Part shown: one piece after another, positions 28,896 to 53,076 of the stretch
Position numbering within the stretch: the first letter of the stretch is position 1
How the letters are laid out: each line of letters begins with the position of its first letter
Assembly (NCBI RefSeq): GCF_002165255.2
Contig: NZ_CP028561.1
Span: forward strand, 248,001-312,000
Direction of reading: 5' to 3'
DNA: 64,000 nucleotides
Origin: Acinetobacter sp. WCHA45
Lineage (GTDB): Bacteria > Pseudomonadota > Gammaproteobacteria > Pseudomonadales > Moraxellaceae
Program-made: the position numbers and the translations under genes
The notes under the pieces: generated by a model
Seen by the model: the letters and a program-made list of their open reading frames with translations, nothing else
Databases searched by the model: none
Told to the model about the DNA's origin: nothing

Positions 28896-28938
28896 TTAAG
28901 TCTCTGTTTTTTTGCGTTAAAATTGGCTAAGCTAAGGA

Positions 28939-28955
28939 TTGGCATAGAACATGCT
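28939..28955 (+). promoter_or_regulatory. Sigma-54 (RpoN) type -24/-12 promoter of pilA
   Basis: ttggcatagaacatgct matches the TGGCAC-N5-TTGCA consensus with the invariant GG (28941-28942) and GC (28953-28954) exactly 12 bases apart. The predicted start, near 28966, leaves a 43-base leader before the pilA ATG. Major pilin genes of Pseudomonas are RpoN/PilR-dependent, which supports the reading. Confidence 0.75.
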
Positions 28956-29008
28956 AAATACAAAGTAGCTTGAAAGGCTTATAAAAATTTATACATTGGA
29001 GAAATGTT

Positions 29009-29434
29009 ATGAACACAATGCAAAAGGGTTTTACTCTTATCGAATTGATGATCGTTGTAGCGATCATTGGTATTTTGGCGGCAATTGCGATCCCTGCTTA
29101 CCAAGACTACACCATTCGTGCCCAAGTAACTGAAGGGGTAAACCTAATGGCTGGAGCAAAAGCATCTGTAACAGAGGTTTTTAATGATTCAGGTACTTTT
29201 CCAGCAACGAATAGTGCTGCTGGTCTACCAACAGCGACTTCAATTAAAGGTTCTTATGTAACTAAGGTTGAGTTGGCAACAGGTGGTGTAATTGTTGCCA
29301 CTTATGGCAACAAGGCAAATTCTAGTATTAGTGGTGGAACTTGTCGTGTTACCCCAGCTAATAACGGTGGTAGTATTTCTTGGACAGGTACTTGCTCATT
29401 TGATCAAAAATGGCGTCCAAAAGCGTTCCGTTAA
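29009..29434 (+). CDS. pilA: Type IV major pilin, intact
   Basis: The main subunit of the type IV pilus, used for twitching and DNA uptake. The seven-residue leader MNTMQKG ends at the prepilin peptidase site, giving a mature protein beginning [20 protein letters not shown] with the conserved Glu5. The globular part has one Cys pair near the C-terminus (GTCRV and GTCSF) that would form the D-loop disulfide; the chain ends KAFR, so there is no C-terminal serine of the kind modified by TfpO ligases. Total 141 aa. A terminator follows, then the glycan block. Only about the first 60 residues resemble the remnant pilin at 49795. Confidence 0.95.
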
Positions 29435-29451
29435 TTTTAACTTCGCTTAAC

Positions 29452-29480
29452 AAGAACCCGACTCGTTCGGGTTCTTTTAT
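29452..29480 (+). terminator. Rho-independent terminator after pilA
   Basis: Inverted repeat aagaacccga / tcgggttctt, five-base loop, followed by a T-rich end. It ends pilin transcription, so the glycan genes downstream rely on read-through or on a promoter of their own that I could not place. Confidence 0.88.
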
Positions 29481-29503
29481 ATCCTGTCCAACGAATTTAT
29501 GAT

Positions 29504-31471
29504 ATGAAAAAAAAATTACAGAATTTTGGGGTAATGGGTTCAATTGTATTATTGGGCTTGGGCTTTATTGTTACGTTTTTTTATATCTACCTGCAAGCTA
29601 TGGGGCTAACTTGGCAGTTTGATGATTATATCAACTTAAAAGACTTATCCAATGCTAGTTCAGTGCAAGGTTTAAATAATTTTATTTTTGGCGGTGTGGC
29701 AGGCCCAACAGGCCGCCCGATTTCGTTGCTGACTTTTTTAGCGAACTATAATGACTGGATGAACAATCATCCATGGGGTTTTGTAAAAACTACGCTGATT
29801 TGGCATCTACTGAATGCCTGCTTAATATTTTTATTAGTCTTCAATATTGCAAAGATATATATTAATAATACCAATCAAAGCTACATTTTTGCCCTCATGG
29901 TTGCTATGGTTTGGGTTATTTTACCGATTCACGCCAGTGCCAATCTGATTCCCATCCAGCGCATGACCCATGTTTCTGCATTTTTTATGCTAAGTACATT
30001 ACTAGGTTATGTGTACTTTAGAACATATCTTTCGAGCAAACAGTCACCCATTTTAAATTTGATACTGGTCATCGGCTGGGTCGTCATTGGTACGATTTTG
30101 GCTGTGTATTCCAAAGAAAATGGTGCGGTTGTTGTCACAATGCTCGCACTACTAGAGCTTTATTTCTTAAAACGTATCACTTACCCTGCTTATCCTAAAC
30201 TGTGGACACTTGGTATTTATTTAGCACTCTTGATTGTTCCTCTGTTTATGCTGCTCTATTTAGTCAAAAATTGGGCTGGAATTAATCATCACTTTGAGTT
30301 TTATCGGGACCGTAGTTTAGCTGATCATCTAGCAACTCAAATCATCATTTTGTGGGAATATTTAAAACAAATCATCCTTCCAAGAGCCGCATTATTAGGA
30401 CCTTTTCATGATGGGCATATCGTTTATCATTGGACAATGTGGCAACCTTATGTCGCTTTGATAGCATGGCTGGTTGCTATTTTTGTGGGTTGGAAATACA
30501 AAGCCTATAGATTAGGCAAGTTTTTATTATTTGCTTTGGTTTGGTATTTTGCAGCTCATCAGATTGAGTCTAGTATTATTCCATTAGAATTATATTTTGA
30601 GCACCGTAATTATTTAGCCAGTTTGGGCTGGGTGGTTTTAATCGCAGTACTATTTGCTGAGATATATAAAAAATATCAAGGGCTTAGTCCTTGGCACATA
30701 TTAGGCGGTATTTATATTTTATATTTATTATTTAACTTACAACAAATTACATCATTATGGGGGAAACCTTTATTGGCTGCTGAAATGTGGAGCACCTATC
30801 AACCAGACTCACCTAGAGCAGCACAAATGTTGGCGGCTCAGTACAAACAAGAAGGTTTTAGAGAGGCATCTATTGAGGTACTAAATGATTTTGCTCAATT
30901 ACATCCAAAAAACATTTCTTTAGAAATGCAAGTTTTCTCCGAAACTTGTGAAAAAAACTCATCTCAGCAAAATATTAATCAATTAAACTCACTCAAAAAA
31001 AATGTAGCTAAAATTTCACTACCTGCAGACATCACGGTAAATATTGCTAGTTTAGGGGAGAATATTCGACAAAAGAAATGTGCAGGAGTGACACTAAAAA
31101 ATTATCTTAATTTTTTAATGGTAGCAGCACAAGTTCCCAAAATTAAACAAAATGCGAATGTCATGCATCATGTTAATTATGAAACTGCTCTAACCTATCA
31201 AGAAATGGATAATACTGAAGCTTATTTAACCTATGCAACCCGAGCTTTCTACAATTATCCAAGTTTAAGTATCGCAGAAAAAATTGCGCTTACTTATTTT
31301 AAGCAAGCAAATAATGAAAAAACATTAGCATGGATAAAAGAAGCACTACAATATGCACCTTCAAATGCGAATGGTGATGCATGGCGTAAAAGTTTAAAAA
31401 GTCTAGCTGAAACGATCAAATCAATCGAAAGTCAACGTAGCAAAGTGGATAACACACCACATGAAAAATAA
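29504..31471 (+). CDS. GT-C/TMTC-like polytopic membrane protein with TPR-like tail; candidate pilin glycosyltransferase
   Basis: A 655-residue protein. The first 430 residues have about 10-12 membrane segments; the first outside loop carries WQFDDY (Asp40-Asp41), in the place where GT-C enzymes and TMTC proteins hold their catalytic acid. The last 200 residues are soluble and helical with TPR-like spacing (for example ASIEVLNDFAQLHPKN and EKTLAWIKEALQYAPSN). GT-C enzymes use polyprenyl-phosphate-linked sugars on the periplasmic side. The gene begins 69 bases after pilA, the position held by the GT-C pilin arabinosyltransferase TfpW in some P. aeruginosa, and overlaps the next gene by 11 bases. 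The membrane fold is well supported; the role as pilin glycosyltransferase is inference. Confidence 0.6.
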   Translation: MKKKLQNFGVMGSIVLLGLGFIVTFFYIYLQAMGLTWQFDDYINLKDLSNASSVQGLNNFIFGGVAGPTGRPISLLTFLANYNDWMNNHPWGFVKTTLIWHLLNACLIFLLVFNIAKIYINNTNQSYIFALMVAMVWVILPIHASANLIPIQRMTHVSAFFMLSTLLGYVYFRTYLSSKQSPILNLILVIGWVVIGTILAVYSKENGAVVVTMLALLELYFLKRITYPAYPKLWTLGIYLALLIVPLFMLLYLVKNWAGINHHFEFYRDRSLADHLATQIIILWEYLKQIILPRAALLGPFHDGHIVYHWTMWQPYVALIAWLVAIFVGWKYKAYRLGKFLLFALVWYFAAHQIESSIIPLELYFEHRNYLASLGWVVLIAVLFAEIYKKYQGLSPWHILGGIYILYLLFNLQQITSLWGKPLLAAEMWSTYQPDSPRAAQMLAAQYKQEGFREASIEVLNDFAQLHPKNISLEMQVFSETCEKNSSQQNINQLNSLKKNVAKISLPADITVNIASLGENIRQKKCAGVTLKNYLNFLMVAAQVPKIKQNANVMHHVNYETALTYQEMDNTEAYLTYATRAFYNYPSLSIAEKIALTYFKQANNEKTLAWIKEALQYAPSNANGDAWRKSLKSLAETIKSIESQRSKVDNTPHEK

Positions 31472-32315
31472 GTTTAGTATTGTACTCCCTGCCAAAAACG
31501 AATCAGGGGCAATCGGGCAAACCATTGAACGCATTAAGCAGCTCAATATTGCCCATGAAATTATTGTGGTGAATGATGGTTCTACAGACCAAACGAAACA
31601 AGTTGCAGAATCTGCTGGAGCAAAAGTCGTCTCCCACCCCTACTCAAAAGGTAATGGTGCAGCCATTAAAACAGGCGCACGTACTGCAACGGGTGAAATT
31701 ATTATATTTATGGATGCTGATGGACAGCATGACCCGCAAGACATCCCTCACTTACTAGAAAAAATTGAACAAGGCTATGATTTAGTTGTTGGTGCAAGAC
31801 AAAAAGGCTCACAAGCTAGTGTTGGTCGTGGTATTGCCAATGCACTTTACAACAACCTTGCCACATATATGACTGAACAAATAGTAGAAGACCTCACCTC
31901 TGGTTTTCGTGCAGTCCGTGCAGTCAAATTCCGTGAATTTTTATATTTACTGCCTAATGGTTTTTCTTATCCAACTACTAGCACCATGGCATTTTTCCGC
32001 GCAGGTTATTCGGTCACTTATGTGCCAATTCATGCGGCTAAACGCATAGGCAAAAGTCATATTCAACCGCTGAAAGATGGAGTACGCTTCTTTTTAATTA
32101 TTTTTAAGATTGCGACACTTTATTCACCGTTAAAGATGTTTTTACCTATCGCTGTTTTATTATTTATTTTAGCGACGGCATGGTATGGATATACTCTATA
32201 TGAGTACGGTCGTTTTACCAATATGAGTGCGTTACTTTATACAGGCAGTATTATGATTTTTTTAATGGGTTTAATTTCAGAGCAGATAACTGCTTTAATG
32301 TATAAAGAGAAGTAA
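31461..32315 (+). CDS. GT2 glycosyltransferase, polyprenyl-phosphate sugar synthase type
   Basis: A family 2 glycosyltransferase of the DPM1/GtrB kind, which moves a sugar from a nucleotide donor onto polyprenyl phosphate at the cytoplasmic face. Seen: FSIVLPAKNES, the donor motif VVNDGSTDQT, the DxD-type motif MDADGQHDP (about residues 90-98), and SGFRAVRA. Two C-terminal hydrophobic segments (about 228-275) anchor it. It overlaps the preceding GT-C-like gene by 11 bases; together they form the minimal pair needed to make and use a lipid-phosphate sugar. The sugar cannot be read from sequence. Confidence 0.85.
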   Translation: MKNKFSIVLPAKNESGAIGQTIERIKQLNIAHEIIVVNDGSTDQTKQVAESAGAKVVSHPYSKGNGAAIKTGARTATGEIIIFMDADGQHDPQDIPHLLEKIEQGYDLVVGARQKGSQASVGRGIANALYNNLATYMTEQIVEDLTSGFRAVRAVKFREFLYLLPNGFSYPTTSTMAFFRAGYSVTYVPIHAAKRIGKSHIQPLKDGVRFFLIIFKIATLYSPLKMFLPIAVLLFILATAWYGYTLYEYGRFTNMSALLYTGSIMIFLMGLISEQITALMYKEK

Positions 32316-32323
32316 ATAGAATC

Positions 32324-34045
32324 GTGTTAAATAGTTTAGAACAACTCTGGCAAATTCTATCGCCCTTAGATAAACGTAAAGTCATTTATGTTTTCATTTT
32401 AGTCATGGGGATGGCTTTTATTGAGTCGGCTGGTGTTATTTCTATTATGCCTTTTTTGGCAGTACTATCGAACCCCAATGTTGTTGAGTCAAACTCCTAT
32501 TTAAAGCAGCTCTATGATTTTACGGGAGCTGCAAATAAACAAAACTTTATACTATATTTAGGCTTTCTCTCACTATTTATTGTTGTATGCTCAACCATAT
32601 TCAAAATTGTGACCCAATATGCGGTGAATCGTTTTGCGAGTTTACAGCGTCACTATTTCTCCACTCGCTTACTTAAAACTTATTTGCAACAAAACTATGA
32701 GTTTTTTATTCAGCGAAATAGTGCAACCTTGGTTAAGAACATTCTGTCCGAAGTCGATCAACTCATTTGGACTATGATCTTACCCGCTTTAACTCTCATG
32801 TCTTATGGTGTTGTATTATTATCTATGGTCGGCATTCTTCTGCTGTATGATCCGCTCATGGCTATTGCAACAGCTTTTGTGCTCGGTCTATTTTACGCCA
32901 GCATTTATATGCTAGTTCGAAAAAAGCTGACACAAATTGGGCAAGAATTTACCCAAGCCAACAAAGAGCGTTACCAAACCTGTCAAGAAGCCCTTGCTGG
33001 TATTAAAGACGTGATGATTAACAATGCAGAACATGGATATATTAAGCAATTTGAGGAATCCTCTCGTGTATTTGCACGGCATATCGCTACACGCGAAACA
33101 CTAGGACAAGTACCACTCAATGTTATAGAAACAGTAGGTTATGGTTGCTTAATTGTTTTAGCCATGCTTTTAGTGGTTTCAGGAAACGAAGTGTCACATA
33201 TTTTGCCTGTGCTTGGTCTATATGGTTTTGCTGCTTACCGTATGCTTCCTGCTGCACAAAATATGTATCGCGCTATTTCTCAAATTAAGTTTTCTGAGCA
33301 GGTCTTGTCACTGCTTAAACCTGAGTTCGCATTAGAAAAAGATGAGTTGAAGCATATAGAAAAAGATAGCACTCAATATTTGAAATTTGAAAATTCCATA
33401 CGTTTAGAGAATATAAGTTTTGCTTATCCCAATCGAATAGAGTCTCCCATCCTAAACAACTTTAGTTTGGAAGTTAAAAAAAACGCTAGCTTGGGTATTG
33501 TTGGAAAAAGCGGCAGTGGCAAAAGTACGCTGATGGATATCATGCTGGGCCTACTCTCCCCACAACAAGGTAAAGTGTATATTGATGATGTCGAGTTGAC
33601 AGCAGATAATATAACCCAATGGAGAGGTTTAGTTGGTTATGTACCACAGAATATTTATTTGGCAGATAAATCTATTGCAGAAAATATTGCTTTTGGCGTA
33701 GCGAAAATAGATATAGATTTAAGGCAAGTTGAGTTTGTAGCCAAGCAAGCACAAATTGATAATTTTATTCAAAGTCAATTGCCTTTGGGTTATCATACAC
33801 TTGTTGGGGAGCGTGGTGTTATGCTTTCAGGTGGACAGCGGCAACGTATAGGTATTGCAAGAGCTTTGTATAAAAATCCACAAGTTTTATTTATGGATGA
33901 AGCGACCAGTGCACTAGATACTGAAACCGAGCAAGCAGTGAATGAAGCTATTCAAAACTTAAATGGAAAAATGACGATGGTGATTATCGCGCATCGGGAA
34001 AGTGCCGTTGAAAAATGTGACCATATACTTGATCTTTATCGCTAA
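32324..34045 (+). CDS. ABC exporter, PglK/MsbA-like lipid-linked glycan flippase
   Basis: A 573-residue half-transporter with six membrane segments (about residues 20-310) fused to an ATPase. Walker A GKSGSGKST is at 394-402, the signature LSGGQ at 500-504, Walker B VLFMDEA at about 520-526, and the H-loop in IIAHRES. MsbA lies elsewhere in most genomes; position inside a glycan locus suggests a PglK-type flippase for lipid-linked sugars. The start is GTG 8 bases after the previous stop. Substrate is inferred from context. Confidence 0.82.
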   Translation: MLNSLEQLWQILSPLDKRKVIYVFILVMGMAFIESAGVISIMPFLAVLSNPNVVESNSYLKQLYDFTGAANKQNFILYLGFLSLFIVVCSTIFKIVTQYAVNRFASLQRHYFSTRLLKTYLQQNYEFFIQRNSATLVKNILSEVDQLIWTMILPALTLMSYGVVLLSMVGILLLYDPLMAIATAFVLGLFYASIYMLVRKKLTQIGQEFTQANKERYQTCQEALAGIKDVMINNAEHGYIKQFEESSRVFARHIATRETLGQVPLNVIETVGYGCLIVLAMLLVVSGNEVSHILPVLGLYGFAAYRMLPAAQNMYRAISQIKFSEQVLSLLKPEFALEKDELKHIEKDSTQYLKFENSIRLENISFAYPNRIESPILNNFSLEVKKNASLGIVGKSGSGKSTLMDIMLGLLSPQQGKVYIDDVELTADNITQWRGLVGYVPQNIYLADKSIAENIAFGVAKIDIDLRQVEFVAKQAQIDNFIQSQLPLGYHTLVGERGVMLSGGQRQRIGIARALYKNPQVLFMDEATSALDTETEQAVNEAIQNLNGKMTMVIIAHRESAVEKCDHILDLYR

Positions 34046-34056
34046 TGGGGCTTTAA

Positions 34057-35121
34057 ATGAGATTCTTAATTACTGGGGGTGCGGGTTTTATTGGTTCAGC
34101 GTTAATTCGTTTTATCCTTAAACAAACAGATCATAGTGTATTAAATGTTGATAAATTAACTTATGCGGGTAATTTAGAGTCACTGAAAGAAATAGAACAA
34201 GATTCAAACTACCAGTTTAGAAGAATTGATATTTGTAATGCTGTAGATATTTCACAAGCAATCAAAGATTTTAAACCTGATGTAATTATGCATCTGGCAG
34301 CAGAATCCCATGTAGATCGTTCAATTGATGGTCCTGCCGACTTTATTCAGACTAATATAGTGGGTACTTATACATTATTAGAAGCTACACGAATGTACTG
34401 GATGAAGCTTAAAAGTGAGGCTCAGAAAAAATTTCGCTTTCATCATATTTCAACTGATGAAGTGTATGGAGACTTAGAGACTACAACTCATCTTTTTACA
34501 GAAATGACACCTTATGCGCCAAGTTCTCCATATTCTGCTTCTAAAGCAAGTTCAGACCACTTAGTACGTGCTTGGCATCGAACTTATGGACTACCTGTTA
34601 TTATTACAAATTGTTCTAATAATTATGGTCCATATCACTTCCCTGAAAAATTAATTCCATTAATTATTTTGAATGCCTTAGAGGCAAAACCCTTACCTGT
34701 ATATGGTAATGGCCAGCAAGTTCGAGATTGGCTATTTGTTGAGGATCATGCACGTGCTTTATACAAGGTCGTGACTGAAGGATGTGTAGGCGAAGCCTAT
34801 AATATTGGTGGCAATAATGAAAAGAAAAATATTGAAGTCATAGAAACCATCTGCAAAATTTTAGATAGATTAAAACCACAAGCTAATGGACAGTCTTATA
34901 AAGAACTTATTACTTTTGTGAAAGATCGTCCTGGGCATGATTTACGTTATGCCATTGATGCAACGAAAATTAAGAAGGAATTGGGATGGTCACCAATTGA
35001 AACCTTTGAAACGGGCATTCAAAAAACCATAGAGTGGTATTTAAATAATTTAGATTGGTGTCATCGAGTACAAGATGGTAGCTACCAACGAGAAAGATTA
35101 GGAGTTAATAACAATGTCTAA
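34057..35121 (+). CDS. rfbB: dTDP-glucose 4,6-dehydratase
   Basis: An extended short-chain dehydrogenase that makes dTDP-4-keto-6-deoxyglucose. NAD-binding GGAGFIGS (7-14), the catalytic set Thr133-Asp134-Glu135 (STDEVYGD) and Tyr159/Lys163 (YSASK) are all present. 354 aa. Overlaps rfbA by 8 bases. It feeds FdtA rather than rhamnose synthesis here, since rfbC and rfbD are absent from the locus. Confidence 0.96.
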
Positions 35122-35995
35122 TACAACAAAAGGTATTGTTTTAGCTGGTGGGTCGGGGACTCGTTTATATCCTATCACTAAAGGTGTGTCTAAACAGCTA
35201 TTACCTATCTATGATAAACCTATGGTTTATTACCCAATTTCAGTATTAATGCTCGCAGGAATACGTGAAATATTAATTATTAGTACGCCTGAAGATATTG
35301 ATGGATTTAAGCGATTATTAGGTGATGGTACGCAGTTTGGTATCCAATTAAGCTATGCAGTTCAAGCTAGCCCTGATGGTTTAGCTCAAGCTTTTATCAT
35401 TGGTGAAGAGTTTATTGGTAAAAACAATGTGTGTTTGGTGCTTGGAGACAATATTTTTTATGGTCAAGGCTTTACTCCAATGTTACAAAAAGCGGTGAGT
35501 CGTAAAACTGGAGCAACCGTTTTTGGTTATCAAGTCAAAGATCCAGAACGCTTTGGTGTGGTGGAATTTAATGAAAATAAACGTGTGATTTCTTTAGAAG
35601 AGAAACCAAAGCAGCCTAAATCCAATTTTGCGGTAACTGGTCTATATTTTTATGATAATGATGTAGTCGAGATTGCTAAAAAAGTAAAGCCGTCAGAGCG
35701 TGGTGAAGTGGAAATTACGACAGTCAATCAGATGTATCTTGAACGTGGTGATTTACATGTAGAACTTTTAGGTCGTGGCTTTGCATGGTTAGATACAGGA
35801 ACGCATGAAAGCTTAATGGAAGCAGGAATGTTTGTAGAAACCATTGAAAAGCGTCAAGGCTTTAAAATTGCATGTTTGGAAGAAATTTCCTTTAATAATG
35901 GTTGGTTAAATAAAGAGCAAGTTTTAGCCATCGGTCGAAGCATGCATAAGAATTATTATGGTCGATATTTGATTTCTTTGGTAGATGAAAAATGA
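35114..35995 (+). CDS. rfbA: Glucose-1-phosphate thymidylyltransferase
   Basis: Makes dTDP-glucose from glucose-1-phosphate and dTTP, the entry step of the deoxysugar branch. The nucleotide-binding signature [11 protein letters not shown] (about residues 9-19) and [16 protein letters not shown] are diagnostic, and LGDNIFYG carries the metal-binding Asp. 293 aa, normal length. Its TGA overlaps the fdtA ATG by four bases. Confidence 0.96.
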
Positions 35996-36387
35996 GTTTA
36001 ATCAAACTGATTAATTTACCTAATTTAAGTGATGATCGTGGTGGATTGATAGCAATTGAATCTGACCAATCCATACCCTTTGAAATAAAACGGGTATATT
36101 ATATTTTTAATACTGCAAATAAACCACGTGGTTTTCATGCGCATAAAGATCTAAAACAGCTTGTTATTTGTATTCATGGACAATGCCGCTTTGTTTTAGA
36201 TAATGGGATTAAGAAGGATGAGATAATCCTAAACTCACCTATCCAGGGACTTGTTATTGAAAGTATGACTTGGCGTGAAATACATGAATTTTCTGAAGAT
36301 TGTATATTATTGGTCTTGGCAAGTGAATACTATGATGAAAGTGATTATATTCGAGATTATGATGAATTTTTAGAGTTTGTGAAATGA
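35992..36387 (+). CDS. fdtA: dTDP-4-keto-6-deoxyglucose 3,4-ketoisomerase (FdtA/QdtA family)
   Basis: A small cupin that moves the keto group from C4 to C3, giving the substrate for a C3 aminotransferase. The family motif RVYYIF then RGFHAHK is present with the two catalytic histidines at about 49 and 51. 131 aa. FdtA (galacto product, toward Fuc3NAc) and QdtA (gluco product, toward Qui3NAc) differ by few residues, so the stereochemistry is not settled by reading. Overlaps both neighbours by 4 bases. Confidence 0.9.
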
Positions 36388-36905
36388 ATTTAAGTTTAAA
36401 GACAATACGCCTACGCTTTGTTGAAGAGTTAGATGCTGAATTTATTTTAAAACTTCGATTGGATAGCCGCTATAACAAATTTTTATCTAACGTTAGCGAT
36501 GATATTCAAGTGCAAAGAGATTGGATTAAAAAATATAAAGTTGATGAGGGAAATAAAGAGCAATTTTATTTTATTATTGAGCGTTTGGATGGTGTGCCAT
36601 GTGGTACTGTTCGAATATATGACTTGAAAGAAGATTCCTTTTGTTGGGGTAGTTGGATATTGAACGAAGATAAAACACCATACTCAGCTTGGGAATGTTC
36701 ATATTTGATTTATAAGTTTGGATTTGAAGTATTAAAGTGCAATAAATCACATTTTAATGTTATGAAAGGAAATGAAGGTGTTATTAACTTCCATAAAAAA
36801 ATGGGAGCAATAGAGATGTATGAAGATGAAAAAAATTTATTTTTTATGATAACACAGCAAGATGTGACCCAATATTTTAATAAAGTTATTAAAATAATCA
36901 TATAA
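36384..36905 (+). CDS. GNAT-family N-acyltransferase, probable amino-sugar acetyltransferase
   Basis: A 173-residue GNAT protein of the RimJ/RimL kind: SLKTIRLRFVEELDAEFI at the N-terminus, the substrate strand FYFIIERLDGVPCGTVRI, and the C-terminal NVMKGNEGVINFHKKMGA where acetyl-CoA binds. It is coupled to fdtA by a 4-base overlap. By position it should acylate the 3-amino group made by the aminotransferase at 41612, as GNAT enzymes such as WecD do for other dTDP-amino sugars. The donor could be acetyl-CoA or an acyl-ACP from the next genes; sequence does not decide. Confidence 0.75.
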   Translation: MNLSLKTIRLRFVEELDAEFILKLRLDSRYNKFLSNVSDDIQVQRDWIKKYKVDEGNKEQFYFIIERLDGVPCGTVRIYDLKEDSFCWGSWILNEDKTPYSAWECSYLIYKFGFEVLKCNKSHFNVMKGNEGVINFHKKMGAIEMYEDEKNLFFMITQQDVTQYFNKVIKIII

Positions 36906-36953
36906 CTCGATTAAATTTGTTAAGATAGGATTTAATATTAAAGAGGACTTGAA

Positions 36954-37181
36954 ATGGACAGTAAGCTGCAAAAAATATTTGCTGAAACCATCGGTATTTC
37001 TATTGATAAGATTGCCGATGATTTAAAATATTCATCTATTCCTGAATGGGACTCTATCACACATATGACACTGATTGCTGTCATAGAACAAGAATTTGAT
37101 ATCATGATTGATGCTGAAGATGTAATTGACATGAATAGCTTTGCTAAAGCAAAAGAAATTGTTGCTAAATATATGGATTAA
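36954..37181 (+). CDS. Acyl carrier protein
   Basis: A 75-residue acidic carrier protein. The phosphopantetheine attachment site is Ser34 in EWDSITHM, a variant of the usual DSL. It is distinct from the housekeeping AcpP and is clustered with an SDR reductase, an AMP-ligase, LuxE and LuxC, so it probably carries a short acyl chain dedicated to this glycan locus. A 48-base gap precedes it, the largest in the cassette, with agaggac as ribosome-binding site. Confidence 0.88.
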   Translation: MDSKLQKIFAETIGISIDKIADDLKYSSIPEWDSITHMTLIAVIEQEFDIMIDAEDVIDMNSFAKAKEIVAKYMD

Positions 37182-37183
37182 AA

Positions 37184-41584: not shown

Positions 41585-41611
41585 TTAGTATTTTTAGATG
41601 GAAAAGTAACT

Positions 41612-43979: not shown

Positions 43980-43980
43980 A

Positions 43981-44982: not shown

Positions 44983-45909
44983 ATGATTGAAACCGCACCT
45001 ATAGTTTTCGCTGTTGTGGTTACATATAATCGGAAACAATTGCTCATGCAGTGTTTAACTGCCTTAGCCAATCAAACTCAGTCACTGAGTAAAATTATCA
45101 TTGTAGACAACGCTTCTACGGATGGAACACTACAGGAATTGCATCAATCTGGTTTATTAGAAAATCCATGTATGCAACTTCTTTCCTTAGCACAAAATAC
45201 AGGTGGCGCAGGGGGCTTTTCCGCAGGGATGCAGTATGCTTTTGAACAGGGAGCTGATTATGTCTGGATGATGGATGATGATGCTATGCCATATCTTACA
45301 GCTCTCGAAGAACTAATGAAGTATGCGACACCTCAACATATTTATGCGTCTTTAGCGATACAAGATCAACAAATCTCATGGGAGATGACCGTAAAGAACG
45401 GTGACATTTGGCGAGCAACGCATAATCCAGCAGATATCTTAGCGGAAATGGAAGTGTATTCTTTACCTTTTTTAGGGTTTATGATTCACCGTGAAATCGT
45501 TGAAAAAATTGGGTTGCCTGACACTTCGTTCTTTATCGCTGCTGATGACACCGAGTATTGTTTAAGAGCAAAGCAAGCGGGCTTTAAACTTTATCTAACA
45601 GGGCAAAGTTTAATTGAACACCCGAAAGCGCAACATCAAGAATATAAAATATTAGGCAAAAAAATTAACTACGTATCGTTACCCCCATGGAAACGTTACT
45701 ACGATACGCGGAATAGAATTTTTATCGCAAAGAAGTATTTTGGGTTTAAGCTCTATTCACAAACCATACCCAGTATTTTATTTCGATTATGCATCTCGAT
45801 GCTGGTTGAAAAAAATAAATATCTACAGTTGAAAGCTTATTATTTGGGTTTGTACGATGGTTTGACAGCTCAAAGTGGAAAACGCCACGAACATAGAGGA
45901 TTAATATAG
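44983..45909 (+). CDS. GT2-family transferase, GlfT2-like galactofuranosyltransferase
   Basis: A 308-residue family 2 transferase with VVTYNRKQLLMQCL, DNASTDGT, NTGGAGGFSAGM and the WMMDDDAMP metal motif. The GGAGGF loop followed by DDD is typical of GlfT2/WbbI-like galactofuranosyltransferases. The UDP-galactopyranose mutase gene follows 2 bases downstream, so use of UDP-galactofuranose is a strong inference from context. Confidence 0.8.
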   Translation: MIETAPIVFAVVVTYNRKQLLMQCLTALANQTQSLSKIIIVDNASTDGTLQELHQSGLLENPCMQLLSLAQNTGGAGGFSAGMQYAFEQGADYVWMMDDDAMPYLTALEELMKYATPQHIYASLAIQDQQISWEMTVKNGDIWRATHNPADILAEMEVYSLPFLGFMIHREIVEKIGLPDTSFFIAADDTEYCLRAKQAGFKLYLTGQSLIEHPKAQHQEYKILGKKINYVSLPPWKRYYDTRNRIFIAKKYFGFKLYSQTIPSILFRLCISMLVEKNKYLQLKAYYLGLYDGLTAQSGKRHEHRGLI

Positions 45910-45911
45910 AA

Positions 45912-47006
45912 ATGAACGTTCTGATTATTGGTGCTGGCTTCGCTGGTTCAGTTACAGCCCGTGAATTGGCAGAGGCAGGACATAAAGTATTAGTTATAGA
46001 TCGTCGAGATCATATCGCTGGCAATGCTTATGATGTAAAAGATGGACATGGCATCTTAATCCATCAATACGGTCCTCATATTTTTCACACCAATAGTGAG
46101 CGTATATTTAACTATTTATCCCAATTTACCGAATGGTGCCCCTACGAACATCGGGTACGTGGCGTAGTCAATGGTCAGGAATATCCCTTCCCGATTAATA
46201 GAGACACCCTCAATCAACTTTATGGTTTAGATTTAACTGAAGAACAAGCAGCTGAATATTTTGAAAAAGTACGTGAACCAAAAGAAAAAGTACTAACCAG
46301 TGAAGATGTTGTACTTAATTCAGTCGGTCGAGATTTATATGAAAAGTTCTTCTTAAACTACACCAAAAAACAGTGGGGGCTAGATCCTTCACAGTTAAAA
46401 GCAGGTGTAGCGGCACGTATTCCAACACGTACCAATACCGATGACCGATACTTTACCGATACTTATCAAACAATGCCATTACATGGTTATACAGCTATGT
46501 TTGAAAATATGCTGAATCATCCAAACATTACGGTTAAATTAAGTACAGACTATAAAGATTTGCTGGCACAAGGTGTCGAGTATGATCATCTGATTTATAC
46601 AGGTTGTATAGATGAGTTTTATGACTATAAATTTGGCAAGCTACCTTACCGCTCCTTACGCTTTGAGCATCAACACCTAGAAAATACTAAACAATACCAA
46701 AGTGTCGGAACTATAAACTATCCAAATGACTTTGAATTTACTCGCATTACTGAATTTAAACACCTTACAGGGCAACAACACCCTGCCACCTCAATTGTTC
46801 GGGAGTATCCAACAGCTGAAGGTGATCCTTACTACCCAATTCCACGTGATGAAAACGAGGCTTTATTCAAAAAGTACAAATCCTTAGCAGACTGTGAAAA
46901 AAATGTTACTTTTGTTGGTCGTTTAGCAGAGTATCGCTATTACAATATGGATCAAGTTGTAGGTGCGGCGTTGAATGCTGTAGATAAAATACTGGAGAAA
47001 AAATAA
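45912..47006 (+). CDS. glf: UDP-galactopyranose mutase
   Basis: A flavoenzyme that interconverts UDP-galactopyranose and UDP-galactofuranose, giving the donor for Galf residues. FAD-binding GAGFAGSVTARELAEAGH begins at residue 7; IHQYGPHIFHT, KQWGLDPSQL and AEYRYYNMDQVVGAAL are diagnostic. 364 aa. It implies galactofuranose in the surface glycan. Confidence 0.96.
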   Translation: MNVLIIGAGFAGSVTARELAEAGHKVLVIDRRDHIAGNAYDVKDGHGILIHQYGPHIFHTNSERIFNYLSQFTEWCPYEHRVRGVVNGQEYPFPINRDTLNQLYGLDLTEEQAAEYFEKVREPKEKVLTSEDVVLNSVGRDLYEKFFLNYTKKQWGLDPSQLKAGVAARIPTRTNTDDRYFTDTYQTMPLHGYTAMFENMLNHPNITVKLSTDYKDLLAQGVEYDHLIYTGCIDEFYDYKFGKLPYRSLRFEHQHLENTKQYQSVGTINYPNDFEFTRITEFKHLTGQQHPATSIVREYPTAEGDPYYPIPRDENEALFKKYKSLADCEKNVTFVGRLAEYRYYNMDQVVGAALNAVDKILEKK

Positions 47007-48116
47007 TTGAAAATCGCATTCTTGTGTAAACGACAATATATGTCTAAAGATGTCATTTTAGATAAATATGCGCGTTTATACGAGATTCCGAATCAATTGG
47101 CACATCTTGGGCACCAAGTTGAATGTTTTTGTTTGAGTTATCAATCACATCATGAAGGCACTTGGGATGAGTCCAATCATGAAAAAAAACTTATTTGGCA
47201 CTCAAAAAGTTATAAGGGCTTAAAAAAACTGGGATTATTCACTTATCCTTTTTTACTTTTACAAAAATTAAAACAATACCAACCAGATATTGTTATTGCT
47301 GCATCAGATATTCCACATATTGTTTGGGGTGCATGGTGTGCTAAACGGCTTAAAGTACCCTTCATAGCAGATCTCTATGACAATTTTGAAGGCTTTGGGC
47401 AAGCTCGCATCCCTGGTATGAAGCATCTTTTACGTCAAGCAGTCTGCCAAGCTCAATTAGTCACAACAACTAGTCAACCATTAGCAGAATTAGTGATTCA
47501 TGATTATGCAGCACAAGCTAAAGTTATTTCTCTACCAAGCACGGTTGATCTAACTACCTTTAGGTCCGGTAATAAATCTAATGCACGGGAAAGATTTGGT
47601 TTACTACCGAATAAACAATATATTGGCACGGCAGGTGGATTGTATAAAGACAAAGGTGTGGAAGTAATTTATCAAGCATGGGAAAAACTTAAACATGAAA
47701 TGCCTAACGTACATTTAGTACTTGCAGGCCCCTATCAACCTGATTATCCACCTCCCGAAGAAGAACGAGTCCATTATTTGGGTAGTTTAGCACACCATGA
47801 AATTTCGACACTTTTTCAAGCTTTAGATCTTGGCATCATTTCAATTTTAGATACCCCTTTTGGACGTTATTGCTTCCCTCAAAAAGCCTATGAAATGTTG
47901 GCATGCGATTTACCTGTCGTTGTAGCGAATATTGGTGAGATGAGTTACTTGTTTAGAGATTCACCACAAGTTCTATTTCAGACAGGCAATGCCAATGATT
48001 TAGCCTCAAAAATTCAACAGCAATTACAATCTCCGCAACAACAAAGTATTGTTGTTGAGGATTGGGCTACTATTATACAGCGTCTTGAACCAATGATTAC
48101 TGCATTGAAATTTTAG
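47007..48116 (+). CDS. GT4-family glycosyltransferase
   Basis: A GT-B fold family 4 transferase, 369 aa. The N-terminal acceptor domain starts MKIAFLCKRQYMSKD; the donor domain has GTAGGLYKDKGVEV, HLVLAGPYQ, and the EX7E-like region FPQKAYEMLACDLPVV. Starts with TTG right after the glf stop. Its last 20 bases overlap the 3' end of the convergent GT4 gene. Confidence 0.86.
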   Translation: MKIAFLCKRQYMSKDVILDKYARLYEIPNQLAHLGHQVECFCLSYQSHHEGTWDESNHEKKLIWHSKSYKGLKKLGLFTYPFLLLQKLKQYQPDIVIAASDIPHIVWGAWCAKRLKVPFIADLYDNFEGFGQARIPGMKHLLRQAVCQAQLVTTTSQPLAELVIHDYAAQAKVISLPSTVDLTTFRSGNKSNARERFGLLPNKQYIGTAGGLYKDKGVEVIYQAWEKLKHEMPNVHLVLAGPYQPDYPPPEEERVHYLGSLAHHEISTLFQALDLGIISILDTPFGRYCFPQKAYEMLACDLPVVVANIGEMSYLFRDSPQVLFQTGNANDLASKIQQQLQSPQQQSIVVEDWATIIQRLEPMITALKF

Positions 48117-49323
48117 TGTTAAAATTTTGAATGCTGTCTTTTAAGATATTGCCATAGGCATAAGCAACACTATCCCAATCAATTAATTTCAGCGCATGCT
48201 GTCGAATCCTTAAAGTACGTTCAGCTGCTAATGTCGGTTCATTTAGTGTTTTTGAAATGGCAGATACCAATTCTTGAGTATTATGCGGATGAACTGCAAT
48301 ATGCTGAATATCTTCACCGAGTAAGTCTTCTATTCCAACCACATGTCCAACTACTGCAGGACAACCACAACCAATCGCTTCCATCAACGCAACGGGTAAT
48401 CCTTCTTGATCCCCATTATCTGCTCGCACAAAAGGTGCCACAAAAAGTGTCGCTTGTTGATACATTTGAGGTAACTGGTCTTGTGAGCGTGCACCCAAAA
48501 AGTTAACATTTTTTCCAAGATTCAATCGTGCAACTTGTTGTTTTAATGCAGACTCTTCAGGGCCAAACCCAACAATATTTAAACGTAATTCAGGATGCTT
48601 ATTCACTAAAATAGCCAAGGCATCCAACAAAAAGTTGAGCCCTTTTTTTGGCACCAATCGCCCTACAAAAAGCAACTCATTATGATGGCGTTTTATATTA
48701 GGGTTTGGAATAAACCGATGCTGTAAGTCTACTCCCATTGGAATTACATCTAGATGTTGAGGTCGTATGCACATTTGTGACAAATAGTCTTGCATAGCCT
48801 GACTAACCACTGTCATCGTAGTGGCATCTTCAGCAACCTGTTTTTTTATTTTCGTGAGCATATTCCCCTGTAACCCAAATAGATCTCCACCGTGTGAAGT
48901 TACAATATAAGGAAGATTGAATTGTTTGCTAAATCGACTTGCTATCCAACCTTGTGGAATTAACCAATGTGCATGAATAACATCAACCTTTTGTGTATCT
49001 AAAATTTTTCTAACTGCAAAATATTGTCCTATCAGAAAACTAGGAACAAGCAACCATTTCCACCAAAAAGCTTTCAAATTGTTAACAATGCCGCCATTAT
49101 TGACCAATAATTGTAATTTTTTAGGGGCATATTTATAACGAACGACCTGAACACCATCTAGGAACCCATTCGGATCGGCATTTACAGCATCGGGTACAAG
49201 TGCAATTACATGAAATTGCTGAGTAAGTCTTTTACAGAGTTCATGAACAAACCCAGGCTCATGATCATTTTCCCAGCGTGGATAAGTTGATGCTAAAACC
49301 AGTACTGTTTTTTTTTGCTTCAT
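48097..49323 (-). CDS. GT4-family glycosyltransferase, opposite strand
   Basis: A 408-residue GT-B transferase: LVLASTYPRWENDHEPGFV, VIHAHWLIPQGW, SHGGDLFGLQG, LLFVGRLVPKKGLNFLL and the EX7E motif EGLPVALMEAIGCGCPAVVG, all typical of family 4 enzymes. It is the only gene of the block on the minus strand and converges on the previous GT4 with a 20-base overlap. It may be a later addition at the island edge. Confidence 0.87.
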   Translation of the reverse strand: MKQKKTVLVLASTYPRWENDHEPGFVHELCKRLTQQFHVIALVPDAVNADPNGFLDGVQVVRYKYAPKKLQLLVNNGGIVNNLKAFWWKWLLVPSFLIGQYFAVRKILDTQKVDVIHAHWLIPQGWIASRFSKQFNLPYIVTSHGGDLFGLQGNMLTKIKKQVAEDATTMTVVSQAMQDYLSQMCIRPQHLDVIPMGVDLQHRFIPNPNIKRHHNELLFVGRLVPKKGLNFLLDALAILVNKHPELRLNIVGFGPEESALKQQVARLNLGKNVNFLGARSQDQLPQMYQQATLFVAPFVRADNGDQEGLPVALMEAIGCGCPAVVGHVVGIEDLLGEDIQHIAVHPHNTQELVSAISKTLNEPTLAAERTLRIRQHALKLIDWDSVAYAYGNILKDSIQNFNTKISMQ

Positions 49324-49408
49324 AGTAATATCTTATAGACAATAAACGGTGGATTCGAGTAAAAAGTTCGATAGTATAAAGGACAGCCGTCACTTTATTA
49401 GGTATAAG

Positions 49409-49723
49409 CTAGTCTATATCTTTTTGTTGAAGGTTGTTTAAATCATCTTTAATTTGTTGAGTCTGCTTATGAGTCATACCTTCGATGAAGATAATTTTCG
49501 CATGTATTTGAGAATTAAACTTTAGTATTTTCTTTCTAGCCTGTTGAATTAACTTGTTTAGAACAGAATTAGGGTGAAGTTTACCACCGATTTGAGCGTC
49601 CAGCTTTATTAGACCATCACAGTTGCACTTTATTATTGAATTTATGACTTTAAATTCCTTGGATTTTGAAGTTAAATGACATGGACAGTTTATTCTTTCA
49701 TGTCTACATGAACATACGACCAT
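49409..49723 (-). CDS. Hypothetical Cys-rich protein, 104 aa
   Basis: An open frame with no counterpart on the other strand, so not a shadow. The product has three CxC pairs in the first 34 residues (CSC, CPC, CNC), suggesting a zinc-binding head, followed by a basic helical tail (ARKKILKFNSQIHAK) ending in Gln/Asp-rich sequence. No good ribosome-binding site is seen before the ATG at 49723. It lies at the island edge next to the pilin remnant. I do not recognise the family. Confidence 0.45.
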   Translation of the reverse strand: MVVCSCRHERINCPCHLTSKSKEFKVINSIIKCNCDGLIKLDAQIGGKLHPNSVLNKLIQQARKKILKFNSQIHAKIIFIEGMTHKQTQQIKDDLNNLQQKDID

Positions 49724-49794
49724 ATGGACAAGGTAAAATTAAAATTAATATAATAAAAATCAATTATATAGTATTCGTCCATATGTATTAATTT

Positions 49795-50268
49795 ATGGAT
49801 TGTATTGAATTAATGATCGTTGTGGCGATTATCGGTATCTTGGCTGCGGTTGCGATTCCTGCGTATCAGGATTACACCAAGCGTGCGAAAGTAACGGAAG
49901 GCTTATCTTTGGCTGGTAGTGCAAAAACTGCTGTTGCTGAAAATGCATCTAATGGTGCTAAGTATAGTTTAGGTTGGGCTACACCAGCAGCTACTGCCAA
50001 TGTTAAAACGGTTGCTGTAGATGATAAAACAGGTGAGATTACAATTACGTATGATACTCCTGTTGCTCCAGCTTCTAAGAATACACTAATTCTAGCTCCT
50101 TTCACTGGTGGTGCTACTCCTGCTGCACTTCCTGACTCAACATCAGCGTATACTCCACCAGCTGATGCTGTTCAATGGCAATGTCTAGCTGCTGGTGCGA
50201 CTAAAAAAGTTTCTACAATGACAGCAGGTACTTTGGAAGCAAAACTAGCTCCATCTAACTGTCGTTAA
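49795..50268 (+). pseudogene. Type IV pilin remnant without leader and promoter
   Basis: The body of a second major pilin. Pilin homology begins abruptly at residue 4 of the mature sequence: the frame reads MDC then [17 protein letters not shown], where an intact pilin would have [14 protein letters not shown]. Without the leader peptide and cleavage site it cannot be processed, and no sigma-54 promoter is present upstream. The rest is undamaged: about 150 codons, a Cys pair (WQCLAAG and SNCR at the end), and a normal terminator. At DNA level it differs from pilA at many third positions even in the conserved part, so it is not a recent copy. TfpZ and PglL genes follow. It could be a silent donor cassette or simply debris. 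Confidence 0.8.
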
Positions 50269-50275
50269 TTTATGC

Positions 50276-50308
50276 AAAAAAAAAGACTGGTTCGCCAGTC
50301 TTTTTTTG
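50276..50308 (+). terminator. Rho-independent terminator after the pilin remnant
   Basis: Stem aagactgg / ccagtctt with a ttcg loop, flanked by a run of A before and seven T after, 15 bases after the remnant's stop. Confidence 0.88.
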
Positions 50309-50334
50309 GAATTAAGTTCTATAGGGTGATGAAA

Positions 50335-50595
50335 ATGAATATTAAAAATATTAATTTTTACTGGTAAATATGCAAAAATGAAAAATTTGGGATTAATGTT
50401 GAAGCGGGGGTAACTCAAAGAATAATAATTCAAATTTCTCAAGAAGCTTTGCAAGATATTAAGCCCGAAAATAGAAATGATTCAGTCAAAGAACAATTTA
50501 GTTCTAACCGCATTAAATTTGAAAAAATTGCAGAAGATAAAATTCGTGATTTTTCTAGTAGAATATCAATCGGCAGTGCAGATATTCTGAAATAA
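50335..50595 (+). pseudogene. Small gene interrupted by an in-frame stop
   Basis: ATG at 50335 opens an 86-codon frame that is open to TAA at 50593 except for a single TAA at 50365 (codon 11). The two parts read MNIKNINFYW and then, after the stop, a frame containing RIIIQISQEALQDIKPENR and IRDFSSRISIGSADILK. This resembles the short Acinetobacter DUF1488-like proteins (an IxxISQEALQD core), an impression from pattern only. No usable start lies between the stop and the core. The 356-base stretch between the pilin remnant and tfpZ holds only this and the terminator. Confidence 0.55.
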
Positions 50596-50624
50596 AGTCT
50601 GTATATGAACTAGAGCTCTTTTCT

Positions 50625-51359
50625 ATGTCCAAACGCCTAAAGTTTTTCCTTAGCCATTTATTGCTCTCATTTTTAGTCGCTTTATCGGTCGTTGGAGTAG
50701 TCTTTTTTATTTGGTATCCATCTTCACTTGCGACAGCTGTTGGCGTGACCCATATCTTTTTAATGTTATTGGCCATCGACGTGATTTTAGGACCACTTTT
50801 AGGCTTGTTAGTCTATAAAGAAGGTAAAAAAACACTCAAATTTGACCTAGGTGTCATTATTTTCATTCAAATTGTGGCTTTGTGTTATGGGGTGTTTAGT
50901 ATTGAACAAGGTCGGCCTGCATGGTTGGTTTATAATGTAGATCGTTTTGAATTGGTTAGAAAAAATGAATTGGTTGACAGTAATATTCAGCAAGCACAGT
51001 CAGAATTTCAAAAACCTTCATGGTTTAAACCTCAATATGTAGGTGTGGAACTTGCCAAAGATATCCAAACTCGCAATGATGATATGTTTGTAGAAGTGAT
51101 GGGCGGGATTTCCATCGCTCAAAAACCTGAGCGTTATGTACCGATGGCTGAAGTTAAACACCAAATCCAACAACGTGCCCAAAACTTGGAATTGCTTAAG
51201 CAATTCAATGATCAGCAATCTGTACAGAAAATTTTAGCCAAATATCCTCAAGCAGATGCTTTTGTTCCACTCAAAGCAACAGCAGTCGATATGACGGTAT
51301 TGATTAATAAAGAAAAAGGTGAAGTTGTTAAAATTGTAGATCTTCGCCCTTGGAAGTAA
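50625..51359 (+). CDS. tfpZ: TfpX/TfpZ-family type IV pilin accessory protein
   Basis: A 244-residue inner-membrane protein with three hydrophobic segments (about 10-32, 40-63, 73-93) and a periplasmic domain containing RPAWLVYNVDRFELV, a hallmark of the family. These proteins accompany particular pilin alleles in Pseudomonas and Acinetobacter and aid assembly of that pilin. Here the expected partner is the remnant pilin just upstream, not the intact pilA 20 kb away. A terminator follows, then pglL. Confidence 0.88.
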   Translation: MSKRLKFFLSHLLLSFLVALSVVGVVFFIWYPSSLATAVGVTHIFLMLLAIDVILGPLLGLLVYKEGKKTLKFDLGVIIFIQIVALCYGVFSIEQGRPAWLVYNVDRFELVRKNELVDSNIQQAQSEFQKPSWFKPQYVGVELAKDIQTRNDDMFVEVMGGISIAQKPERYVPMAEVKHQIQQRAQNLELLKQFNDQQSVQKILAKYPQADAFVPLKATAVDMTVLINKEKGEVVKIVDLRPWK

Positions 51360-51394
51360 ATTGTAGTTTTTATCTTATATTTAATTTGTGTGTT

Positions 51395-51429
51395 AAGGCT
51401 TAGCGATATAATTCACTAAGCCTTTTTAT
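51395..51429 (+). terminator. Rho-independent terminator after tfpZ
   Basis: Inverted repeat aaggcttag / ctaagcctt with a 12-base loop, then five T. It ends only about 12 bases before the pglL ATG, so pglL expression probably depends on read-through or on a promoter within this short gap. Confidence 0.75.
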
Positions 51430-51441
51430 TCTGTATAAAGT

Positions 51442-53076
51442 ATGCCATTTCTATGTCTCATTCTTGCTAGCCTCTTACTTAGCTTCGCTTGGCTATCACC
51501 ATTTCATACCTATCCCTGGGTGACATTTTCCAGTGAGCTGGCAAGCTTCGGAGCTGCTTTGGCGTTACTGGGTGTTTTGTTCAAACAAAATATTAGAATT
51601 CCTAAACCACAACTTTTGATGTTGCCGTTGCTTTTGATTCCTGTATTTCAATGGCTATTTGGACTCGTTCCAGATTTTAGTGTGGCATTGCTAAGTTTTT
51701 CATATGTTTTTATGTTTTGGTTGATGATGATAGGTGGATATAACCTGTCCTCTACATCTGAAAATCGTCAACGCTCTATGCAAGGGTTGAGTTATATCGT
51801 ACTGAGCGTTGCTTTTATAAGTAGTTTGATTGCGATTGTTCAATGGTTGAATTTAGAGTCAAACTTTAATTGGGTTATTCAGCTCAAAGGTAACCGCCCA
51901 TATGCAAATTTTGGTCAACCCAATAATTTAGCTACATTTTTGATTATAGGTTTAATGGGGGCATTGTTCTTATATGAAACGCATAAAGCATCTTTGTGGC
52001 TACTTATCCCAGCAAGCTTATCTATCTTATTTGCGATCTGCTTAACTCAGTCACGTACTTCCTTCCTAGTCTGTATTTTTATTTGTATCTATTGGGTGAT
52101 TAAGCAATATAAGAATAAACCAAGGCTTAATTTTATTAAGTTATTTGGTTGGGCTGCTACTTATTTTTTAATTGCGGGCTATTTATTGCCTATTATCGCA
52201 CAAGTCATGACGACAAGTGTTGGAGAGGCGGTAACCCATACAGCATCACTAGCACAACGTGCAGGTTCAGGGCATGAGCGTCTTGGGATGTGGATGCAAA
52301 TTATACATGCCATAGGTGAGCGTCCGTGGTTTGGTTATGGCTGGAATCAAACAAGTGTCGCGGTTGTGGAAAGTATTCATTTTAATACCGTGCAAGTTTG
52401 GTTTAATAGCGCGCATAATATCGTGTTAGATCTGTTGGTTTGGAATGGTTTGCCATTAGGCTTTTTAATTATTGCGTACTTTGCGATTTGGTTATTTTGG
52501 TTAAGTAAAAATGCAAAAGATACAATTTCGATTGTGGCAATATTAATGGTCAGCGCAATTTTGATGCATGCGATGTTGGAGTTTCCGCAGCGTTATGCTT
52601 ACTTTTTATTGCCAATGGGTTTTTTGTTGGGGTTAATTCAAGCTCAAACGCCAAATTTAAACGGTGTTAGCTTACATCGAAATATTATTCGTTGTGTATG
52701 GCTCGTTTCTCTGATTGTCTTACTGTTGATTTGGCGAGATTACAAACTGTTCCAAGAGAATAGTAAATTGGTTTTTAAGCAAAAACCAGTTTCAGAAGAA
52801 ATATTGGGAAGTTCTAAAATATTGATACTTACTCAATTTCAGCAAAGATTAGATTGGATTGCTTTAAAGCCTCAGACATTGATGTCTGATTCAGATCTTA
52901 GCGTAATTGGCGAAATGGTTGAAAATAAGGCTACACCTTATAATTTAAAAAAATATGCACAATTACTTGTTTATAATCATAAGCTTGATGAAGCGGAGCA
53001 ACAATTATTTGTTTTACAACAATTGTATAAGCAAAAAATAAGCTTGGTAGAAATTATGGAATTAAATAATAAATAA
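51442..53076 (+). CDS. pglL: PglL-type O-oligosaccharyltransferase (pilin-adjacent)
   Basis: A polytopic enzyme that transfers preassembled lipid-linked glycan to serine or threonine of exported proteins in the periplasm. 544 aa, about 11 membrane segments, with the PglL signature RPYANFGQPNNLATFL (about 150-165), a long periplasmic loop, the Wzy_C-type motif SGHERLGMWMQIIHAIGERPWFGYGW holding the conserved His, and a C-terminal soluble tail. Acinetobacter strains often have two such enzymes, one next to the pilin gene and devoted to it; this is the pilin-adjacent one by position. O-antigen ligase WaaL is the nearest alternative, less likely next to tfpZ. Confidence 0.87.
   Translation: MPFLCLILASLLLSFAWLSPFHTYPWVTFSSELASFGAALALLGVLFKQNIRIPKPQLLMLPLLLIPVFQWLFGLVPDFSVALLSFSYVFMFWLMMIGGYNLSSTSENRQRSMQGLSYIVLSVAFISSLIAIVQWLNLESNFNWVIQLKGNRPYANFGQPNNLATFLIIGLMGALFLYETHKASLWLLIPASLSILFAICLTQSRTSFLVCIFICIYWVIKQYKNKPRLNFIKLFGWAATYFLIAGYLLPIIAQVMTTSVGEAVTHTASLAQRAGSGHERLGMWMQIIHAIGERPWFGYGWNQTSVAVVESIHFNTVQVWFNSAHNIVLDLLVWNGLPLGFLIIAYFAIWLFWLSKNAKDTISIVAILMVSAILMHAMLEFPQRYAYFLLPMGFLLGLIQAQTPNLNGVSLHRNIIRCVWLVSLIVLLLIWRDYKLFQENSKLVFKQKPVSEEILGSSKILILTQFQQRLDWIALKPQTLMSDSDLSVIGEMVENKATPYNLKKYAQLLVYNHKLDEAEQQLFVLQQLYKQKISLVEIMELNNK

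Follow-up and report, generated by a model that had tools for sequence, protein, structure and literature searches.

Between positions 29009 and 53076 of the window, the whole 64-kb stretch of Acinetobacter sp. WCHA45 DNA that was analysed, an intact pilin gene is followed by a terminator, a block of 19 genes, a leaderless pilin, a broken small gene, tfpZ and pglL, with bfr beyond them, confirming the layout described in an earlier note. Features lie on the forward strand (+) unless marked (−). The native pilin promoter region (28861..29008) is 96% identical to G064 over 148 bp and 96% identical to G079 over 123 bp. The intact type IV pilin (29009..29434; PF00114 and PF07963, N_methyl) has a native-like 5′ part and a foreign body: the first 102 bp are 93% identical to G079, and the body finds its best match, 67%, in G141. 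A terminator-like hairpin with a T-run was read by eye in the sequence at about 29452..29479.

The block consists of 19 glycan-type ORFs spanning 29504-49323, a 75-aa acyl carrier protein (ACP; 36954-37181) included, and contains w655, six glycosyltransferases, a PglK-like flippase, a dTDP-3-amino-6-deoxyhexose route, an acyl module and glf. It opens with w655 (29504..31471), a multi-pass membrane protein with a TPR-like C-terminus and a candidate pilin glycosyltransferase. GT2a (31461..32315; PF00535), a GT2 protein like the polyprenyl-phosphate sugar transferases AglJ/PpgS (TIGR04182, E 1e-39, below cut-off), and the PglK-like ABC flippase (32324..34045; NF050066, E 7e-109, below cut-off) follow. 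The RmlB-, RmlA- and FdtA-like genes (34057..36387; PF16363, PF00483 and PF05523), named from their families, presumably form the dTDP-6-deoxy-3-amino-hexose route. Next come the acyl module (36384..41584; GNAT, ACP, SDR, AMP ligase, LuxE and LuxC), a DegT-type, FdtB-like aminotransferase (41612..42739; PF01041), a GT61 and two GT2 glycosyltransferases (42732..45909), the UDP-galactopyranose mutase glf (45912..47006; PF03275) and a GT4 glycosyltransferase (47007..48116). The last gene of the block is a second GT4 glycosyltransferase in reverse (48097..49323, −), and most other blocks were likewise closed by a reversed GT4 of the same broad cluster in the ORF clustering.

To the right of the block, a 104-aa ORF with a cysteine-rich start (49409..49723, −), which had no relative in the other 148 genomes searched, overlaps with its start codon a site of what we identify below as the right end of a pilin-targeting recombinase element (49678..49802). 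A six-base coupling sequence, TATTGA (49803..49808), and a beheaded resident pilin body without leader or N_methyl domain (49809..50268; PF00114) complete this edge; the ORF of the headless pilin (49795-50268) starts within the element end. Beyond it lie the broken small gene (50269..50624), whose reading frame is interrupted by stops, an intact gene for the pilin accessory protein TfpZ (50625..51359; NF041437, 353 bits against a cut-off of 200), and a native, intact O-oligosaccharyltransferase of the PglL/PglS class (51442..53076; PF15864, PF04932 and PF11846). The best DNA match of TfpZ was not in the near relatives and came from G008 (81%). PglL is 95% identical to G137, G079 and G110, and bfr, also intact (TIGR00754), is 96% identical to the near relatives. 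Two further pilin-like frames, probably minor pilins, lie beyond the window (G000:C6:314436-315267).

No RNA family or tRNA gene was found in the window, and such a gene was therefore rejected as the landing site. The GC content was 0.358 in the block, 0.407 in the left flank, 0.400 in the right flank and 0.364 in the PILr-PglL segment. The earlier note had asked whether GC changes exactly at about 49800; there is no sharp step at this position because the PILr-PglL segment has the GC of the block, and GC was rejected as a boundary marker, the change being too gradual.

Insertion of the glycan block and its predicted function

We looked for TPM and bfr in 149 Acinetobacter genomes and found the two on a single contig in 126, of which 125 gave an interval shorter than 60 kb; the other 24 genomes were left out since TPM or a close bfr was not found, the two were on different contigs or, in G075, they were 209 kb apart. 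ORFs of the other 124 intervals were clustered together with the window. The intervals measured below 6 kb in 77 cases, 6-10 kb in 13 and 10 kb or more in 35. In this comparison from lemA/TPM to bfr, which the earlier note had proposed, w655 was present in 25 intervals, the recombinase-like gene c19 in 9 and neither in 91; 46 of these 91 hold TfpZ and PglL, and some of them carry other insertions. The near relatives G079 and G110 have no block, with intervals of 4.8 and 5.5 kb, and the near relative G137 has a different block. Near relatives match the window in the promoter, the pilin 5′ end, PglL and bfr but not in the body of the intact pilin, the block, the headless pilin or TfpZ, and eight of the central block genes had no DNA match in the other 124 intervals. 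Because native outer flanks enclose a foreign middle and the near relatives G079 and G110 are blockless, these sequence comparisons support the insertion of the block at this site, as the earlier note had held. The note had set against insertion the case that a full pilin stands on each side of the block in every relative. Such a layout was seen in a minority: a second leadered pilin lies to the right of the block in 8 of the 23 forward-facing w655 loci (in G083 with a variant leader, and in one case with a fragmentary block), and the others have none. In four more of the 23, G064, G071, G056 and G086, a second pilin with a leader is just after w655. Separately, the interval in G054, G132 and G091 (L135-L140) holds an additional large cluster, in which some 17 shared genes have sizes reminiscent of a type VI secretion locus.

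w655 directly adjoins the pilin in 24 of the 25 loci that have it; in G119, w655 is broken and a 105-aa ORF separates it from the pilin. w655, GT2a and PglK occur together in 21 of the 25, and w655 had no match on plasmids. Its nearest carriers include Acinetobacter sp. SwsAc4 (P0003) and A. indicus HXZ65_13730 (P0005). The protein has 8 hydrophobic segments, no Pfam or NCBIfam family match and neither a Wzy_C nor a PglL_A domain; TPR matches were found among its homologues and in the PDB, and the membrane part had no solved relative by sequence. For 59 w655 homologues, the O-antigen-ligase domain PF04932 was not among the 25 families listed out of 50, and Wzy_C_2 gave a very weak match in 2 of the 59 (best E 0.017). 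We take a resemblance of w655 to TMTC-type GT-C enzymes as a lead only.

The window shows the linkage that marks a pilin O-glycosylation locus, with the pilin next to a transferase candidate, a flippase and sugar genes. We infer that the block should assemble a lipid-linked glycan, which the PglK-like protein would flip and w655 would attach to the adjoining pilin. No phosphoglycosyltransferase family was seen in the block, and GT2a appears by sequence to resemble the polyprenyl-phosphate-charging enzymes AglJ and PpgS; a lipid-monophosphate pathway with w655 as its final step is possible. The acyl module, which lies amid sugar genes, would perhaps give an unusual N-acyl group on an amino sugar. 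In the clustering, none of its genes (36384-41584) had a relative in the other 124 intervals.

The right edge and a pilin-targeting element

Other Acinetobacter carry, at the same codons of the pilin gene, a recombinase element whose right end is matched by the 125 bp to the left of the window's headless pilin. When window positions 49678-49802 were aligned with the right ends of 11 other loci, the spacing was equal in 10, and G147 lacked the middle site. The order at the edge of the window is TATGGAC-type sites, TTATGGATTG, TATTGA and the pilin body, the position of the six bases having been compared across loci. The right end in the window has diverged and shares 71% identity with G088 over 94 bp. 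Its core pattern gave a single match in the window's genome, and the reversed control gave none. Pilin-cluster ORFs of the 125 intervals numbered 192, of which 177 had a recognised leader and 15 did not. The right end was upstream of none of the 177. Three of the 15 have a variant leader (G069, G083 and G096), and the right end accompanies 11 of the 12 truly leaderless pilins, upstream of the ORF in 10 and inside its start in G147; G144 has a leaderless pilin without an element end. Since the end is shared with leaderless pilins and absent before the leadered ones, the remnant was most likely made by site-specific integration and not by a crossover in conserved sequence.

In the relatives, the element, recognised by its trio genes, sits inside the resident pilin in 9 of the 125 intervals. 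On its left stand the promoter and leader of the pilin as far as the GFTLI codons, and TACTCCATAAGTGTCC follows them. Its right end consists of TATGGAC sites closing with CTTATGGAATG (GATTG in G088); six variable bases come next, and the resident pilin body follows this hexamer in 8 of the 9 intervals. Together with a second copy in G050 and four loci from a contig search (L144, L148, L149 and L150), 14 trio copies were available; L149 and L150 are cut by contig ends, and L148 and L152 of G047 are the same place. The left flank was a pilin leader in 11 of the 12 trio copies with a visible left end, the exception being copy 2 of G050, and likewise in G118. Pilin sequence followed the right end in 11 of the 13 copies at pilin loci, and G085 and L150 do not show it there. 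These comparisons establish both the right end and the target codon.

The gene set of the element comprises three recombinase-like genes, c18, c19 and c20, and a small gene, c21. c18 matches PF00589 (E 1.8e-9) and gave weak Xer-type matches in NCBIfam, where c19 and c20 gave none. c19 keeps R435, G458 and Y468 in 12 sequences, and in a distant relative the PF00589 match (E 0.0035) stays below cut-off; stops interrupt the c19 of G138. The integrase signal of c20 is weak, with one relative matching at E 0.025. The integrase-type catalytic genes of a tyrosine-recombinase transposon are thus carried by the relatives' element and not by the window.

A pilin with its leader was present inside all 14 trio copies and was reversed relative to the flanking genes in the 13 at pilin loci; this cargo pilin lies near the right end of the element. 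Mean identity over 36 pairs from nine elements was 85% for c19 proteins and 33% for cargo pilin bodies. Cargo and beheaded bodies were 28-35% identical in seven genomes and 62% identical in one. Because cargo pilins differ strongly both from each other and from the beheaded bodies, integration changes the pilin type. The promoter-leader stub that integration leaves behind and the cargo pilin's promoter-leader, which are in opposite orientation, matched by BLAST at 10 of 10 loci (best piece 59-252 bp, 69-87%).

The window holds a remnant, not a whole element. The right end and the GFTLI/E target are present, and the left end, the recombinase trio and the small fourth gene are lacking: TACTCCATAAGTGTCC was not found in the window with 3 mismatches allowed, ten element genes left no trace in its 64 kb (tblastn, E 0.01), and c19 had no match in the window's genome, G000 (E 0.001). 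A further right-end match was seen about 12 kb from TPM at G128:C13:953-978, in a genome outside the 125 intervals and with no c19 match.

Evidence of movement came from G050, where two element copies of 16,433 bp are 100% identical. Copy 1 is in the pilin, and copy 2 (L151 and L159) is outside it, with two pilins and TfpZ as cargo. Their identity extends over the full length, which places the cargo pilin within the element. From a reading of the translation, copy 2 is apparently inside another open frame near Rhs-type sequence. Its right hexamer, GATCGA, equals the six bases to the left of copy 1 in the pilin. Tn554/Tn916-type transposons use tyrosine recombinases, and their coupling sequence passes from the old left to the new right flank; if the hexamers are read in this way, copy 2 would derive from the pilin copy. 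These features indicate that the element is mobile, with the six-base coupling and the movement seen in one genome.

Of the 149 genomes, 19 have c19: in 10 there are close copies (80% or more), and the remaining 9 have distant copies alone. The contig search yielded nine element loci, five from genomes of the 125 intervals and four additional; the nine include A. terrae, A. towneri, A. colistiniresistens, A. terrestris, A. indicus, A. pecorum and one A. baumannii. Protein relatives of c19 numbered 211, and the best 120 of the 211 were all at least 80% identical and bore Acinetobacter names. On plasmids of other genera, relatives of c19 were found in 31 records and of c20 in 165, all below 60% identity and at 33% and 36% for the best-ranked; in the one such region examined, on a P. 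aeruginosa plasmid, no pilin was annotated. c19 had no match on phages. A search of 369 genomes of the class found none at 1e-20, an empty answer that shows little since the search ran without a positive control. Distant trio relatives are also present at other Acinetobacter sites (L153-L155, L157 and L158), where one pilin query had no match at E 0.001 within 19-kb stretches.

Proposed history of the locus

The glycan block was found in element traces at two loci. In G118, a reversed pilin-w655-GT2a block is enclosed by both ends of the element along with c16, and the trio is missing. G147 has the right end, remnants of c20 and c21 and no left end, with a reversed pilin-w655-GT2a-PglK block. 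Since these are the only two reversed blocks and both carry element traces, blocks can ride such elements. The block of the window faces the opposite way and is the sole one among the 23 forward-facing w655 loci with an element end; the other 22 have no element end and no element gene except one weak HAD-hydrolase-like match in G141. Fragments of c21 alone lie near the pilin in G024, G114, G040 and G059, four of the 91 intervals without w655 and c19. The main pilin is reversed relative to TPM and bfr in G024 (L100), G114 (L084) and G059 (L098), and also in G034, G103 and G057. Because c21 fragments adjoin the reversed pilin, G024, G114 and G059 look like decayed elements.

Taken together, these sequences suggest that the headless pilin is probably what is left of a former resident pilin, into which a mobile element related to the pilin-targeting one integrated site-specifically at the GFTLI/E codons. 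Such an element would enter the pilin gene at these codons and behead the resident pilin; since it would bring along an intact pilin of its own, reversed and close to the right end, integration would replace the pilin type. Its cargo would have included a w655-GT2 glycan block, as in G118 and G147. The promoter-leader stub would then have recombined with the cargo pilin's promoter-leader, by inversion or after uptake of donor DNA, so that the cargo pilin and the block came to lie forward behind the old promoter. The left end and the recombinases would have been lost, the right end surviving in the window. The earlier note's claim that an old promoter and leader stand before a new pilin is borne out for the parts themselves, with a native-like promoter and 5′ end and a foreign body; how the new pilin gained this promoter we infer, because the left end and the recombinases are absent and the block orientation is opposite. 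A promoter-stub trace of an inversion was sought at 49324-49720 by blastn against the 125 intervals and was not found. The lack of any left end, element gene or stub trace, the diverged right end, G144 and the element-free forward blocks count against this history.

An appreciable but smaller chance falls to two separate events. The element would have beheaded the pilin and largely decayed, and the block, which would never have ridden it, would have arrived later by natural transformation, with crossovers in the pilin promoter/5′ end and near 49400. This sequence of events fits the many forward blocks without element ends (22 of the 25 w655 loci), the left junction within shared pilin sequence and the missing left end and recombinases, but the element traces in both reversed blocks and a window block that ends less than 400 bp from the right end speak against it.

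The earlier note had instead invoked a single homologous crossover in the conserved pilin 5′ end, which would have cut the remnant at mature residue 4 and stranded the old body. A crossover is possible for the left edge, where the promoter and the first 100 bp of the intact pilin are native-like and the body is foreign. For the right edge it is contradicted: the edge is element-end sequence in register with other loci, which a crossover would not create, and the same edge is absent from the 177 pilins with a recognised leader. As an account of the whole locus, we therefore consider it improbable. It is still harder to believe that a second pilin has its normal promoter or regulatory region at 49678-49802, or that the resemblance is due to chance. 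A pilin frame with an ATG in frame does follow the motif directly, but the frame's product has no leader, and we rejected this reading on the pattern count in the genome, including the empty reversed control, and on the absence of the motif before all leadered pilins.

Relation to known systems

We lean towards regarding the pilin-targeting elements as a family of transposons that land in the major pilin gene, carry a replacement pilin with or without a glycosylation operon and switch the pilus type, decay leaving re-typed loci. If so, the element would spread through an altered receptor, the one on which pilus phages and DNA uptake depend, and permanently re-typed loci would include the window and the reversed pilins beside c21 fragments in G024, G114 and G059. 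Pilins differ greatly from one Acinetobacter genome to the next, and the appearance of entirely new pilin types has been attributed to recombination; the element would offer a way to change the pilus coat. A single event that both breaks and replaces the pilin would account for abrupt switches of type, for remnants without a head and for pilin genes in reverse, all at the same locus. The model predicts circular forms, junction hexamers and changed phage sensitivity upon integration. A search by title and abstract, with most subscription journals outside its range, did not find an element that lies in a pilin gene and carries a pilin.

In Pseudomonas, pilin allele cassettes with TfpX/Y/Z combine a pilin type, an accessory protein and glycosylation genes that vary together, and these cassettes spread by homologous recombination beside a tRNA gene. 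In Acinetobacter, by contrast, a dedicated element cuts the pilin gene itself. The Gamma-mobile-trio (GMT), reportedly described by Mahata et al. in 2024, is said to be a mobile, cargo-bearing trio with an integrase-family gene in gammaproteobacteria; to our knowledge, pilin targeting is not part of it. The trio genes had no match at E 10 to GMT-named NCBIfam models, of which the library may hold none. Work on GMT is cited in PMC12715929 and PMC11888443.

In A. baumannii, the natural-transformation gene comM is interrupted by AbaR and other islands, according to PMC11472951. The pilin-targeting element is similar in that a mobile element interrupts a natural-transformation gene; unlike it, the comM islands come with no mention of a replacement comM in the passages on them, which name no element in pilA. 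Acinetobacter comP-PglS and pilin-tfpO loci encode a pilin near its own O-oligosaccharyltransferase, as reviewed in PMC12645811. The PglL beside bfr in the window is of the same PglL/PglS class by its domains, whereas w655 of the block has no Wzy_C or PglL_A domain and has homologues with TPR repeats.

The closest likeness in mechanism that we draw is to Tn554/Tn916, with which the pilin-targeting element would share integrase-type genes and the transfer of a six-base coupling sequence. It differs from them in its three recombinase-like genes plus a small one, in its pilin-leader target and in its cargo of a replacement pilin.
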